Shown here: positions 22,052-40,875 of the stretch, one piece after another | Position numbering within the stretch: the first letter of the stretch is position 1 | Layout: the number at the start of each line of letters is the position of its first letter | Assembly: GCF_008065115.1 (NCBI RefSeq) | Contig: NZ_CP042913.1 | Span: forward strand, 1,896,338-1,960,337 | DNA from: Bythopirellula goksoeyrii | GTDB lineage: Bacteria > Planctomycetota > Planctomycetia > Pirellulales > Lacipirellulaceae | Direction: 5' to 3' | DNA length: 64,000 bases | Notes under the pieces: model-generated | Database searches by the model: none | Seen by the model: only the letters and a program-made list of their open reading frames with translations | What the model was told of the DNA's origin: nothing | Position numbers and translations under genes: made by a program

Positions 22052-22125
22052 GGTCCGGTAGCTCAGTCGGTTAGAGCAGGGGACTCATAATCCCTTGGTC
22101 GGGGGTTCGAGTCCCTCCCGGACTA
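22052..22125 (+). tRNA. tRNA with CAT anticodon (Met, or Ile2 if lysidine-modified)
   Basis: The 74 bases fold fully: acceptor GGTCCGG with CCGGACT (a G-T closing pair), D-arm GCTC...GAGC, anticodon stem GGGGA/TCCCT with loop CTCATAA, variable loop TGGTC and T-arm GGGGG-TTCGAGT-CCCTC, then discriminator A. No CCA is encoded. The CAT anticodon can mean elongator Met or Ile2. The anticodon arm and TTGGTC variable region resemble E. coli ileX, but elongator Met genes can look the same. It lies at the left edge of the accessory region and an integrase fragment follows immediately. Confidence 0.93.
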
Positions 22126-22169
22126 CTTTATACTTTGAAAACGAACTAGACGGTTGTGTTTTCTGAGGA

Positions 22170-22416
22170 TTAATTAGACTCTCGCGCTGCACTTCCAGGC
22201 ATTTCAGTCGCCTGCTGCACCGGATTATCCAGCGCTTTGTTGGCCACCGCTTTGGTGAAATGGGCATCGATTATTTTGCAGATAGTGGCGTCGTGCAACT
22301 CTCTCACTGTTTCCCAGCCAAGTACAAACCACGTGCAGTGGGTATTCGGCCTCCAGTTCGGTCTGACGGGTGCTACGATGATTCTGAAACAATTCTTGCC
22401 AAGGCTCCAGACCCGC
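22170..22416 (-). pseudogene. Frameshifted C-terminal fragment of a tyrosine integrase
   Basis: Reading the minus strand from 22416 in one frame gives AGLEPWQELFQNHRST, RQTELEAEYPLHVVCTWLG and NSERVARRHYLQ, which is the C-terminal catalytic part of a tyrosine recombinase: the R-x-T-x-L helix, the H-V-V-C-x-W-L-G block and the HYL segment with the nucleophile Tyr. Just after HYLQ the frame must shift by one base to continue DAHFTKAVANKALDNPVQQ and ATEMPGSAARESN, stopping at 22170. The first two thirds of the gene are missing, with a TGA directly before the first codon. It sits 44 bases from the tRNA 3' end, as integrases of tRNA-targeting elements do. It is a dead remnant. Confidence 0.8.
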
Positions 22417-22642
22417 TCATTCAATGATGTGATTGTATTCAGTTATTAAATCCGGCAATGAAGTTGTTGTTAATACCCCCTTTTCGGAGTCGGTATGCGC
22501 AGAGGGAGTGCTAGGTACTAATTGAAGTCCGTCAGAATCCCGAAAAGGGACCAGACCGAGGCAGCAACAGGAGATATTCCTCCCCTCGCGCGAGTGTGCG
22601 TAGGAGCATCATACACGCGGAGGGCGACCAAGTCCCTGATAC
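22417..22642. other. Gene-free stretch between the integrase remnant and the first 66-residue gene
   Basis: No convincing coding frame, tRNA or terminator is seen here. Together with the integrase fragment it makes a 500-base gene-poor zone behind the tRNA. It probably represents decayed insertion DNA. Confidence 0.4.
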
Positions 22643-22843
22643 CTACCATCCCACCTCGCCAGCCTCTACCGCCTCCACAGCCTTTTTGAGCGCGGCCGAC
22701 TCGGTACTACCAAAGAATCCCTTGCCGCAATTGGCCCGGGACACATAGCAGGCCCATTGGTCGACGTCCAATCGACCGGTCTCGCTCAGTTCCACTTCAA
22801 AGCCCTTCGATTCCATAGAATCGATCAGTGTGCTGGTTTCCAT
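22643..22843 (-). CDS. 66-residue cassette protein, copy A
   Basis: This hypothetical protein starts METSTLIDSMESKGFEVELS and ends FFGSTESAALKKAVEAVEAG plus EVGW. A strong GGAGGAGA ribosome site lies a few bases before ATG 22843, deciding against the upstream GTG at 22903. It is closely related to the gene at 26717-26917; the last 24 residues differ at very few positions, while the middle differs more. The C-terminal helix SAALKKAVEAVEAGEVGW and a W/C/Y-containing core suggest a small folded protein. The family is not recognised. Upstream DNA is also shared with copy C. Confidence 0.75.
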   Translation of the reverse strand: METSTLIDSMESKGFEVELSETGRLDVDQWACYVSRANCGKGFFGSTESAALKKAVEAVEAGEVGW

Positions 22844-22904
22844 CGCTCTCTCCTCCAGGGTGCCGTGATCGTCCGTGATTACCATAAGTGTACAGATGGC
22901 CACT

Positions 22905-38430: not shown

Positions 38431-38672
38431 GGGAACGAATCAGCCTGAAACTTTAGAAATTGTCCAGAAGGTTTAATCCGTCTACCGATGCCTGATTCTT
38501 GGATTAAGCACGGCTGCATAAATCTACAATTTGCCATGGTGAGTCATAGACCAACTGTCGATTCGCACCGTTTGGCATGAAGTCACCTTATTCACTTTCG
38601 AGTTTATGGCTCCGCAATCAGTTACTATCTGTGACATGATTATCAATCACCGGGCGAAGTAATAAAACAAGA

Positions 38673-40532
38673 ATGCGTATGGGAGAAAGTGAAACGCTAA
38701 GATTGAGAAGCAATTGGCTCTTATTGATTTGCCTGCTGGTGGTGTTGATCTCAAGTTACCTTGCTTCCTTGGTGCAAACATCCGGAGGACGAGTCCAAGT
38801 TCAAGAAATCAAAATACCGACGCAAAATGGCCAATGGATTGTAGCTGATCTATTTAAGCCTAGAATCGCAACTAGGAAGAATCCTGCTCCACTTGTAGTG
38901 GTTGTTCCCGGCTTTCAACGCTCGAAAGAAACACTTTCGAACATCTCCCTCGAATTGGCCCGTCGCAACGTCGTAGTTATTGCAATCGACCCATACGCTC
39001 AGGGAGGATCTAGCTCCTCGACAAGTAGACGTTCTGCAACGACTGAGGGCTACGGTATGTTTGCCGTTGTGAACTACGCTTATGACACTCCTAACTTGAA
39101 TTACATCGACAAGAGTCGAATTGCAGCGACGGGACATTCTGCCGGAGGGAATGCTGCTATTCGGGGGGCAAACTATTTTGGGAAGATCGCCAGAAAGACT
39201 GAAAAGCCTTGCAAATTGAATGCAATTTTCGTTTCTGGGTACGTAGAGACGATGGACAACGAGGTTTTGCAAGATGTCCGCTGCAATGTGGGAATGAGCT
39301 ACGCCAAATATGACGAAGGGGCATATCGAACCGAGTTGAAAAATGGGGATATGCGGTTCGCTCCAGAAGCCCTAAGACTGGTCAATTCCGGTCTTCTTGA
39401 AAAGGGACCCGAAATTGAAGAAGTTGAAATCGGTCGTTACTACGGCAACAAGGACGACAAGAATTTGCGAGTTGTGTTTAACGAAGGATTGCTGCATCCT
39501 TTTCAACCCTATGCCATCGAGCCTACCGAAAATCAGCTGGACTATTTTAAAGAAGTTTTTCAACTCGACAGCGGGCTACCAAGCAAGGATCAGATTTGGT
39601 ATTGGAAAGAGTTGCTAACTTTACTCTCCTCGATTGCAGCATTAGTGGCGCTTGTACCTCTTGCTCGATTGCTTTTGGAGCTTCCTTTATTCAAGGATTT
39701 AGCGCACCCACTTCCAAAGGCACTACCAAAACCACATGGAAAAGGGAGAATGATTTTCTGGAGCCTCTTCTTTATTTCTGCTGTGGTTGCTTGTTTTTCA
39801 TACATCCCGATGGCCGAGCTATCTCAAAGGCTCTTTGTCGCTGCCTCAAGCCGAGAACAAACTTGGTTCTTTCCACAACGCATGAACAATGCCGTCATGC
39901 TGTGGGCAGTCTTGAATGGTATCGTGGGATTTTTGTTGTTTTTTCTCTCTTACTACTACCACGGAAGGCTTCATGGCGTCCTTCCGGAAATGTGGGGATC
40001 GAGAACGAATCTTGTTGAACTCACCAAGACATTCCTGCTCTCCTTATTGCTTTTCGCTTGCTTTTTTCAATTGCTATTTGCCGTACATTATTTCTTCCAT
40101 GTGGACTACCGTTTTGTCTTTTTTGGGGCACGAGTTTTTCAGCCAGTCATGTTTATTCTGTTAAGCATGTACGCCCCTATCTTCTTCTTGTTTTTCCTTT
40201 CCAATTCATTGCGTGTTAATGGCGCCATGCGATTCGAAGGAGAACCTGAATGGAAGAGCATGCTACTAGCTGGTTTGGCTAACACCATCGGGCTTCTGCT
40301 CATTCTAGTCGTGCAGTATTCCGTGTTCGCGCTCACAGGGACTGTGTACTGGACCGATGGATGGCTGTATGTTAACTTGCTTTTCGCAGTCGTTCCGATC
40401 ATGTTTATTTTACCATACTTTAATCGTTACTTCTTTCGATTGACTGGTAGGATCTACTTGGGACCAATGACCACTTGTCTAGTATTTGTGATGATCCTCC
40501 TTTCCAACACGGTCTGCTACATTCCTCTCTGA
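38673..40532 (+). CDS. Alpha/beta hydrolase fused to a polytopic membrane domain
   Basis: The protein has 619 residues. After one N-terminal membrane anchor (WLLLICLLVVLISSYLASL) comes an alpha/beta hydrolase domain with the elbow ATGHSAGGNAAI (Ser156), an upstream oxyanion-type strand PLVVVVPGFQRSKETLS and a possible His in VVFNEGLLHPF. From about residue 315 the protein is membranous, with seven or so hydrophobic segments (LLTLLSSIAALVALVPLARL ... LGPMTTCLVFVMILLSNTVC). Such hydrolase/membrane fusions are not classical in this lineage. Base composition is AT-richer than the core genes, in keeping with an accessory gene. Substrate is unknown. Confidence 0.75.
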   Translation: MRMGESETLRLRSNWLLLICLLVVLISSYLASLVQTSGGRVQVQEIKIPTQNGQWIVADLFKPRIATRKNPAPLVVVVPGFQRSKETLSNISLELARRNVVVIAIDPYAQGGSSSSTSRRSATTEGYGMFAVVNYAYDTPNLNYIDKSRIAATGHSAGGNAAIRGANYFGKIARKTEKPCKLNAIFVSGYVETMDNEVLQDVRCNVGMSYAKYDEGAYRTELKNGDMRFAPEALRLVNSGLLEKGPEIEEVEIGRYYGNKDDKNLRVVFNEGLLHPFQPYAIEPTENQLDYFKEVFQLDSGLPSKDQIWYWKELLTLLSSIAALVALVPLARLLLELPLFKDLAHPLPKALPKPHGKGRMIFWSLFFISAVVACFSYIPMAELSQRLFVAASSREQTWFFPQRMNNAVMLWAVLNGIVGFLLFFLSYYYHGRLHGVLPEMWGSRTNLVELTKTFLLSLLLFACFFQLLFAVHYFFHVDYRFVFFGARVFQPVMFILLSMYAPIFFLFFLSNSLRVNGAMRFEGEPEWKSMLLAGLANTIGLLLILVVQYSVFALTGTVYWTDGWLYVNLLFAVVPIMFILPYFNRYFFRLTGRIYLGPMTTCLVFVMILLSNTVCYIPL

Positions 40533-40563
40533 AAATTCGGGCCTTATCGAATAACTATCCTAC

Positions 40564-40612
40564 AGTGGGTTGGAGGCGGGATTAAAACCTGCGATTCTGG
40601 CTTCCAAAGGTC
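40564..40612 (-). other. tRNA-like 3' half at the island end
   Basis: On the minus strand the sequence runs TAGAGCATTGACCTTTGGAA, then a T-arm-like GCAGGTTTTAATCCCGCC and CTCCAACCCA. It has the right order for the second half of a tRNA (anticodon-like arm, T-arm, acceptor 3' strand), but no matching 5' half is present and the anticodon stem has mismatches. It overlaps the stop of the decayed frame at 40611. It is best read as a broken tRNA or att-type fragment. Confidence 0.4.
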
Positions 40613-40862
40613 AATGCTCTATCGATTTCTTTTCGATGATATTCAATATCGTCGCCTGAGTAGCCTTTGGGAGGTTGTCCCAGGCTCCTATCACGGTCTC
40701 CAATTCAGTGCTAAAATCCTCCGGTATCGTTCCAACTGCACCGGATTCTGCAGCGCTTCGCAAGCCGCATTGACCGAAGTTGTTGGCCACCCAAGTAGTT
40801 AGGTCGATTGTATCGAGTTCCTCCCGACTACTTTTTTCTACAACTATCAGCGAACCACCTGC
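40611..40862 (-). pseudogene. Decayed coding fragment, possibly an integrase tail
   Basis: Between stops, the minus strand reads WVANNFGQCGLRSAAESG, PEDFSTELETVIGAWD and NLPKATQATILNIIEKK, ending at a TGA at 40611. This resembles the non-catalytic tail found on some planctomycete integrases, but the evidence is weak because no catalytic motif is present. It has no start codon of its own context, overlaps a tRNA-like fragment at its end and a tRNA 3'-end-like sequence inside it, and lies directly before panB. It is clearly not an intact gene. Confidence 0.3.
40795..40836 (+). repeat. Decayed copy of the 3' end of the tRNA at 22052-22125
   Basis: GGTCGATTGTATCGAGTTCC followed by TCCCGACTACTTTTTT aligns with the tRNA 3' part (GGTCG, TCGAGT, CCTCCC, GACTACTTT all conserved). 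It would be expected as the second copy of a tRNA-end attachment site, here at the far boundary of the accessory region, about 18.7 kb from the tRNA. A possible T-tract follows. Confidence 0.5.
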
Positions 40863-40875
40863 TCACACGCAACTT

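Follow-up and report, generated by a model that had tools for sequence, protein, structure and literature searches.

A probable decayed and accreted tRNA island behind a tRNA(CAU) gene in Bythopirellula goksoeyrii

Introduction

Integration often targets tRNA genes and many attP sites complete the gene, according to PMC12884075, whose reference list also names the Islander and TIGER approaches to tRNA islands. For planctomycetes, PMC4807772 reports poor synteny, a high degree of rearrangement and predicted genomic islands; our literature search returned no paper on planctomycete tRNA islands by title, which is no proof of their absence. Here we analyzed a 64-kb stretch of the Bythopirellula goksoeyrii chromosome (G000:C1:1896338-1960337, in the following "the window"; G000 is a single-contig genome of 6.47 Mb), in which a CAT tRNA gene followed by a broken integrase gene marks the left end of an 18.7-kb region located between the core genes BFN and panB. 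A reading of this DNA from its letters alone, referred to here as the sequence-only reading, had proposed that one or more tRNA-targeting elements inserted at this position and then decayed. Our comparison with related genomes indicates that the region is most likely an accreted and decayed tRNA island in a rearranging genome and not a new system.

Results

A broken integrase directly behind the CAT tRNA

The CAT tRNA is intact and the sole tRNA that ARAGORN and Rfam detected in the window, and no other full-length match to its sequence was found in G000 (Table 1). ARAGORN labels it as Met, but C4, C5 and the variable loop CTTGGTC, which we take to be identity elements, indicate that it is probably a tRNA-Ile2. 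The sequence-only reading had described an integrase C-terminal fragment that starts 44 bases past this tRNA, and this fragment could be recovered in the form of two minus-strand frames. They read toward the tRNA, and the stop codon starts at the 44th base past it. The 47-amino acid (aa) frame contains what are presumably the R-x-x-R and Tyr (HYLQ) motifs. As this piece by itself has no Pfam match, the identification is based on its similarity to integrases, which amounts to 49-64% identity over 45-47 aa for the integrases of eight examined loci; the values are 64% for the tRNA-Val integrase and 63% for the tRNA-Met integrase of G004, the closest relative (panB 91% identical). A tyrosine integrase gene therefore adjoins the tRNA 3' end as a two-frame remnant only, and a mobile element at 22-41 kb is expected to be inactive with its integrase broken.

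The same tRNA is a recurrent integration site

A match to the tRNA was present in all 29 genomes searched. Integrase-like sequence behind the tRNA was found in nine of the 28 CAT tRNA loci, out of 29 examined, whose 3' flank is 100 bp or longer (G000, G006, G009, G011, G012, G015, G026, G030 and G032, the last of which is probably the locus of the other CAT tRNA). Its nearest point is 1-365 bp from the tRNA, and it is oriented toward the tRNA in seven loci and away from it in two (G015 and G026). The absence of an integrase from the other loci is weak evidence, as several 3' flanks end at contig ends and 11 loci were covered only to about 1.5 kb or less. As pieces of the window itself and the G006 integrase were among the queries of this survey, the very low E-values at these two places are self-matches.

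In two of these relatives the integrase frame is still open. It comprises 424 codons in G006 and 447 codons in G011 from stop to stop, extends in both cases into the tRNA gene itself and has the same orientation as the remnant in the window. Integrase similarity starts 157 bp past the tRNA in both genomes and 150 bp past it in the window, both proteins show 57% identity to the remnant and match PF00589, and the G006 integrase also matches PHROG 1. In G011 the tRNA 3' end is additionally repeated, exactly and over 23-24 bp, at G011:C259:5975-5998 on a contig other than that of its open integrase, with a glmU-prs-pth-ssb cluster, as judged by eye, on the outward side. This copy, which duplicates nearly the same tRNA segment as the left core in the window, is possibly the attR (right attachment site) of a better preserved element.

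A comparison of the flanks of this tRNA in 17 genomes revealed shared sequence on the 5' side in 19 of 136 pairs, while 12 pairs share anything on the 3' side, where six of the 17 flanks are shorter than 2 kb. Six of these 12 matches are the integrase adjoining the tRNA, one (G009-G017) begins more than 1 kb away, and the remaining five consist of short, scattered matches that add up to 36-153 aa. Relatives thus carry different content at the same site, and this is most evident in the pairs G000-G004, G001-G007, G001-G010 and G007-G010, which have the 5' side in common and nothing on the 3' side within 9-kb flanks. The DNA behind the CAT tRNA is a recurrent integration hotspot in this bacterial group.

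Integrases at other tRNA genes agree with this. Among the 30 integrase loci of G000 and G004 that were examined, out of 43 integrase matches listed, ten have an integrase frame at most 600 bp from a tRNA 3' end, and the 3' side of tRNA-Met carries an integrase match in six of 12 other genomes; therefore, integrases at tRNA 3' ends are usual here. Orientation toward the tRNA is not universal.

Two further loci of G000 were noted in this survey. Beside the integrase at G000:2927498-2927986 a tRNA-like 3'-end fragment (L197:2146-2165, Val-like by eye) was seen at a place where no intact tRNA was found, which makes it another displaced tRNA end. The PF00589 matches at G000:2048777-2049379 and 4117913-4118515 have equal scores and equal 346-aa frames, and are perhaps copies of one transposable unit.

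A degenerate tRNA end at the right border

At the far boundary the sequence-only reading had seen a decayed tRNA 3'-end-like sequence at 40795-40836. The alignment narrowed it down to a degenerate direct repeat of 40813-40834, in which 21 of 23 columns are identical to the tRNA 3' end, with one mismatch and one gap. It scores 17, compared with 11 for the second-best site in the window, and among 6,458 windows, drawn from the window itself and 34 stretches of G000 and G004 (tRNA genes excluded), a score of 17 was reached twice, both times by windows overlapping this copy, with 15 as the next best value. The copy covers the tRNA segment that is duplicated exactly in G011. Immediately before it, the similarity of a truncated small-open reading frame (ORF) segment to G004:C2 ends at 40800, 12 bases from the copy, and therefore a junction is placed there; 75 bp separate this point from panB (40876), and the att-like copy lies within them. 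The corresponding place in G004 is located about 160 bp from a 63-aa remnant of an integrase SAM domain (PHROG 1, E 0.00025).

The second tRNA-like half, which had been proposed at 40564-40612, could not be substantiated: Rfam gave no match at E<=10, ARAGORN no gene, and the matches listed for this stretch in G000 and G004 included no tRNA. The broken frame reported beside it is present, but belongs to a fragment of a small ORF on the minus strand (40614-40790), to which small ORFs of relatives are related. A resemblance had suggested the small ORF as a companion of integrases; we do not claim such an association, as no integrase match at E<=1e-4 was obtained in 13 small-ORF loci, which include the window itself and the G004:C2 place where PHROGs finds the 63-aa integrase fragment.

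Table 1. Features of the region between BFN and panB (positions in the window)
Feature	Position	Strand	Remarks
tRNA, anticodon CAT	22052-22126	+	presumed attachment gene; found by ARAGORN and Rfam
Left att-like core copy, T loop to 3 bases beyond tRNA end	22107-22129	+	
Integrase remnant, second frame, last 34 codons	22173-22274	-	stop codon 22170-22172
Integrase remnant, first frame, 47 aa of catalytic domain	22276-22416	-	similarity to integrases
66-aa ORF, dispersed repeat family	22643-22843	-	second copy 26717-26917
645-bp segment	24311-24955		644/645 identical to G000:2014384-2015028
GNAT/FemAB-like gene segment	25131-26571	+	G004:C5:167753-169188, 87% DNA identity, silent-site identity 0.83
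PEP-CTERM/DUF1559 module	27329-34564	-	G004:C4:667971-675177, 86-90% DNA identity, silent-site identity 0.64-0.75
Hydrolase-like gene, ECF sigma factor, FecR/LamG protein, hydrolase-membrane protein	35082-40532	+	silent-site identity 0.32-0.52
Truncated small-ORF segment	40614-40800	-	40669-40800 matches G004:C2:546216-546346 at 78%
Degenerate tRNA 3'-end copy	40813-40834	+	candidate right attachment site

The interior is a mosaic

Most of the DNA between the tRNA and the right tRNA-end copy has homologues at two other loci of G004. The segment of 25.1-26.6 kb matches G004:C5, and 27.3-40.5 kb is collinear with G004:C4:667971-681055, where the homologues of the four genes at 35082-40532 adjoin the homologue of the PEP-CTERM/DUF1559 module. 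G000 has the genes that border this G004 block at 1.83 Mb and 2.90 Mb.

Identity at silent sites (fourfold-degenerate sites, G000 versus G004) differs strongly between the parts. It is 0.37-0.51 in eight core genes beside the region and 0.64-0.83 across seven interior genes, with the highest value for the GNAT gene and the lower ones for six genes at 27.1-34.6 kb; the four genes at 35.1-40.5 kb fall into the range given in Table 1. Judged from these values, the genes of 25-35 kb were probably exchanged horizontally after the split of the G000 and G004 lineages, and strong codon bias could be an alternative cause of the raised identity, whereas the block of 35-40.5 kb looks as old as the core genes. 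The GC content is 0.498 inside compared with 0.532 outside, which is the lowest value of any 18.7-kb stretch of the window in 200-bp steps. The modestly AT-richer interior of the sequence-only reading was thereby reproduced, and this composition agrees, weakly, with an island.

The gene content was scanned in several ways. Pfam scans of 13 longer interior ORFs revealed no relaxase or conjugation genes, and a PHROGs scan of eight interior ORFs no capsid, terminase or tail gene. The latter gave two weak matches, one to an esterase/lipase family and one to a "virion structural protein" family (E 0.00026), which covers residues 264-547 of the protein encoded at 36739-38430, where Pfam finds Laminin_G_3. 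No PADLOC match to a defense gene was obtained for nine window proteins or for the 63-aa integrase fragment of G004:C2. The 619-aa hydrolase-membrane protein was found among 39 genomes in G000 and G004 only, apart from a marginal 30% match in G017. Relatives of this hydrolase occur in 190 stretches of a bacterial and archaeal collection, the best 80 of which span several phyla as judged from their titles.

Some smaller observations concern the left part of the interior. Both copies of the 66-aa ORF end with ..AVEAGEVGW, and their DNA recurs at a number of places in G000 and G004. The 645-bp segment is accompanied by 12-bp direct repeats at 24295 and 24941, 646 bp apart, of which the copy at G000:2014384 has only one; this suggests a recent duplication or a small mobile unit. 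Between 27121 and 27329 the homology with G004:C4 ends within the 3' end of a PEP-CTERM gene. As 27230-27373 recurs elsewhere in both G000 and G004, recombination between such gene ends could mark the edge of the block.

Gene order around BFN and panB

BFN and panB, as had been stated before, flank the region immediately on the outside. Among the 34 relatives with both genes, the two are on different contigs in 29; in the other five they share a contig, at distances of 34 to about 814 kb. A tRNA within about 1.5 kb of BFN was found in two of 30 BFN loci, those of G000 and G004. In G004, BFN-tRNA and panB are 34 kb apart with other genes in between, which include, read by eye, carA, pgk, glmM and mtaB and which sit at three other places in G000. 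The join of BFN and the tRNA looks derived, because in five of six outgroup BFN loci the neighbor on the tRNA side is the gene group located at C2:494-504 kb in G004. On the other side, the gene next upstream of panB matches that of G000 or G004 in none of 12 outgroup loci, five of which have a tRNA-Gly about 6-9 kb upstream of panB in common.

The 3' flanks of the two tRNA(CAU) genes appear to be swapped between G000 and G004 (G000:1670000-1689999 and G004:C2:480000-492000), with the 5' neighbors of tRNA-Met and tRNA-Ile2 conserved. In G000, a gene block termed "a" starts 62 bp behind tRNA-Met and the integrase remnant forms the 3' flank of tRNA-Ile2; in G004, block "a" starts 1.1 kb behind tRNA-Ile2 and tRNA-Met carries an integrase, which among six flanks is the nearest DNA relative of the remnant (70%, 121 bp). 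Block "a" was considered as an old neighbor of tRNA-Met and discarded, as it was not found near tRNA-Met in any of the 12 other genomes examined, two of which have only about 1.2 kb of 3' flank. An inversion by crossover inside the T arm common to both genes was rejected because the acceptor strands would be swapped, yet G000 and G004 each carry both tRNAs intact. This leaves only an exchange outside the tRNA coding regions, and recombination of the resident elements with each other would swap the 3' flanks in this way. We nevertheless give little credence to the idea that related elements behind both tRNA(CAU) genes shuffle the chromosome by serving as recombination bridges, and two independent events fit the swapped flanks equally well. 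If true, recombination between elements could help to explain the scrambled gene order of planctomycetes.

Discussion

The following course of events is the most likely one. The 3' end of the tRNA(CAU) gene would serve as the attB of a tyrosine integrase family in this genus, and the integrase of an incoming element would have recombined the chromosomal tRNA 3' end with the copy that the element itself carried. As a result, the tRNA would have stayed whole, the element would have come to lie directly behind it with an integrase gene pointing at the tRNA, and the displaced tRNA 3' end would have been shifted to the far side, to what is now 40813-40834; we infer both that this copy is a true attR and the order of these events. 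A frameshift and stop codons would then have broken the integrase, and because of this break the element would have been fixed and the far att copy would have decayed. The DNA between the tRNA-end copies would represent accretion and not the original cargo of the element, composed of a zone of dispersed repeats, the shared surface-protein genes (25-35 kb) and the older accessory block (35-40.5 kb), pieces that may have been brought or moved by later insertions and chromosomal rearrangement. For the proposal of one or more inserted and decayed tRNA-targeting elements, the support is good at the left end and fair at the right.

Several observations weigh against such an island. No integrase was found within 6 kb behind this tRNA in G004, the nearest relative, and no tRNA in the stretches of G004 that contain the interior homologues (C4:660000-692000 and C5:160000-176000). 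Among the ten integrases close to a tRNA end in G000 and G004, eight point away from the tRNA and two toward it. In the scanned interior ORFs no transfer or phage genes were recognised. The right att copy has one mismatched and one gapped column, and its score was compared with about 0.6 Mb and not the whole genome, so that it may still have arisen by chance. In addition, no empty site was found, because BFN and panB are adjacent in none of the 34 relatives; the check for BFN-tRNA-panB contiguity in sister genomes, with the two genes on separate contigs in 29 of them, therefore gave no clean answer.

The stretch might also be read as several rearrangement breakpoints, with a real integrase scar on the left, a chance match on the right and no island. 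The mapping of the interior to two other G004 loci, the positions of the G004 gap genes at three other places in G000, the distance of about 1 Mb in G000 between the genes flanking the G004:C4 block and the lack of the G000 or G004 upstream neighbor at all 12 outgroup panB loci are in line with this explanation, as is the poorly conserved gene order of planctomycetes described in PMC4807772. However, the right match ranks first among the 6,458 windows, falls within the 75 bp between 40800 and panB and comprises the tRNA segment that is repeated exactly in G011; we therefore regard a pure accumulation of breakpoints as unlikely. A single arrival of the entire 18.7 kb, as an integrative element whose cargo would be the PEP-CTERM, sigma-factor and hydrolase genes, would suit the tRNA 3'-end copies at both ends, the slightly AT-richer interior and the narrow distribution of the 619-aa hydrolase, but it is very unlikely in view of interior pieces at two G004 loci without a tRNA in the stretches taken, the different silent-site identities of the sub-blocks and the lack of recognised transfer or phage genes in the scanned ORFs. 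The 18.7 kb are thus probably not one element, and a single island inside a contiguous BFN-tRNA-panB arrangement, as implied by the sequence-only reading, finds no support, since most of the interior is found at two other G004 loci and the contiguity was not observed.

What started as a weak hint is now documented: a single-copy, probably essential tRNA is an integration hotspot in one genus, and in two relatives an open integrase frame occupies the same site. The region also illustrates that what looks like an island in these rearranging genomes can be a mosaic, and therefore boundaries are misleading when they are drawn only from a tRNA end and neighboring core genes. The swap of 3' flanks between the two tRNA(CAU) genes provides a concrete lead on genome rearrangement.

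In kind the structure is ordinary and belongs to a known type of genome island. It resembles the tRNA islands of the Islander/TIGER type in the integrase right behind the 3' end of a tRNA that is left whole, in the copy of the tRNA 3' end on the far side and in a content that varies between genomes. It differs from them in the broken integrase, the degenerate right copy, the mosaic interior with homologues elsewhere and the lack of a detected empty site. The integrases located at tRNA-Met, -Val, -Asn, -Arg, -Ala and -Pro genes of G000 and G004 have the same domain and occupy the same 3' side as the remnant, but their frames are open and most of them, as mentioned above, read away from the tRNA.

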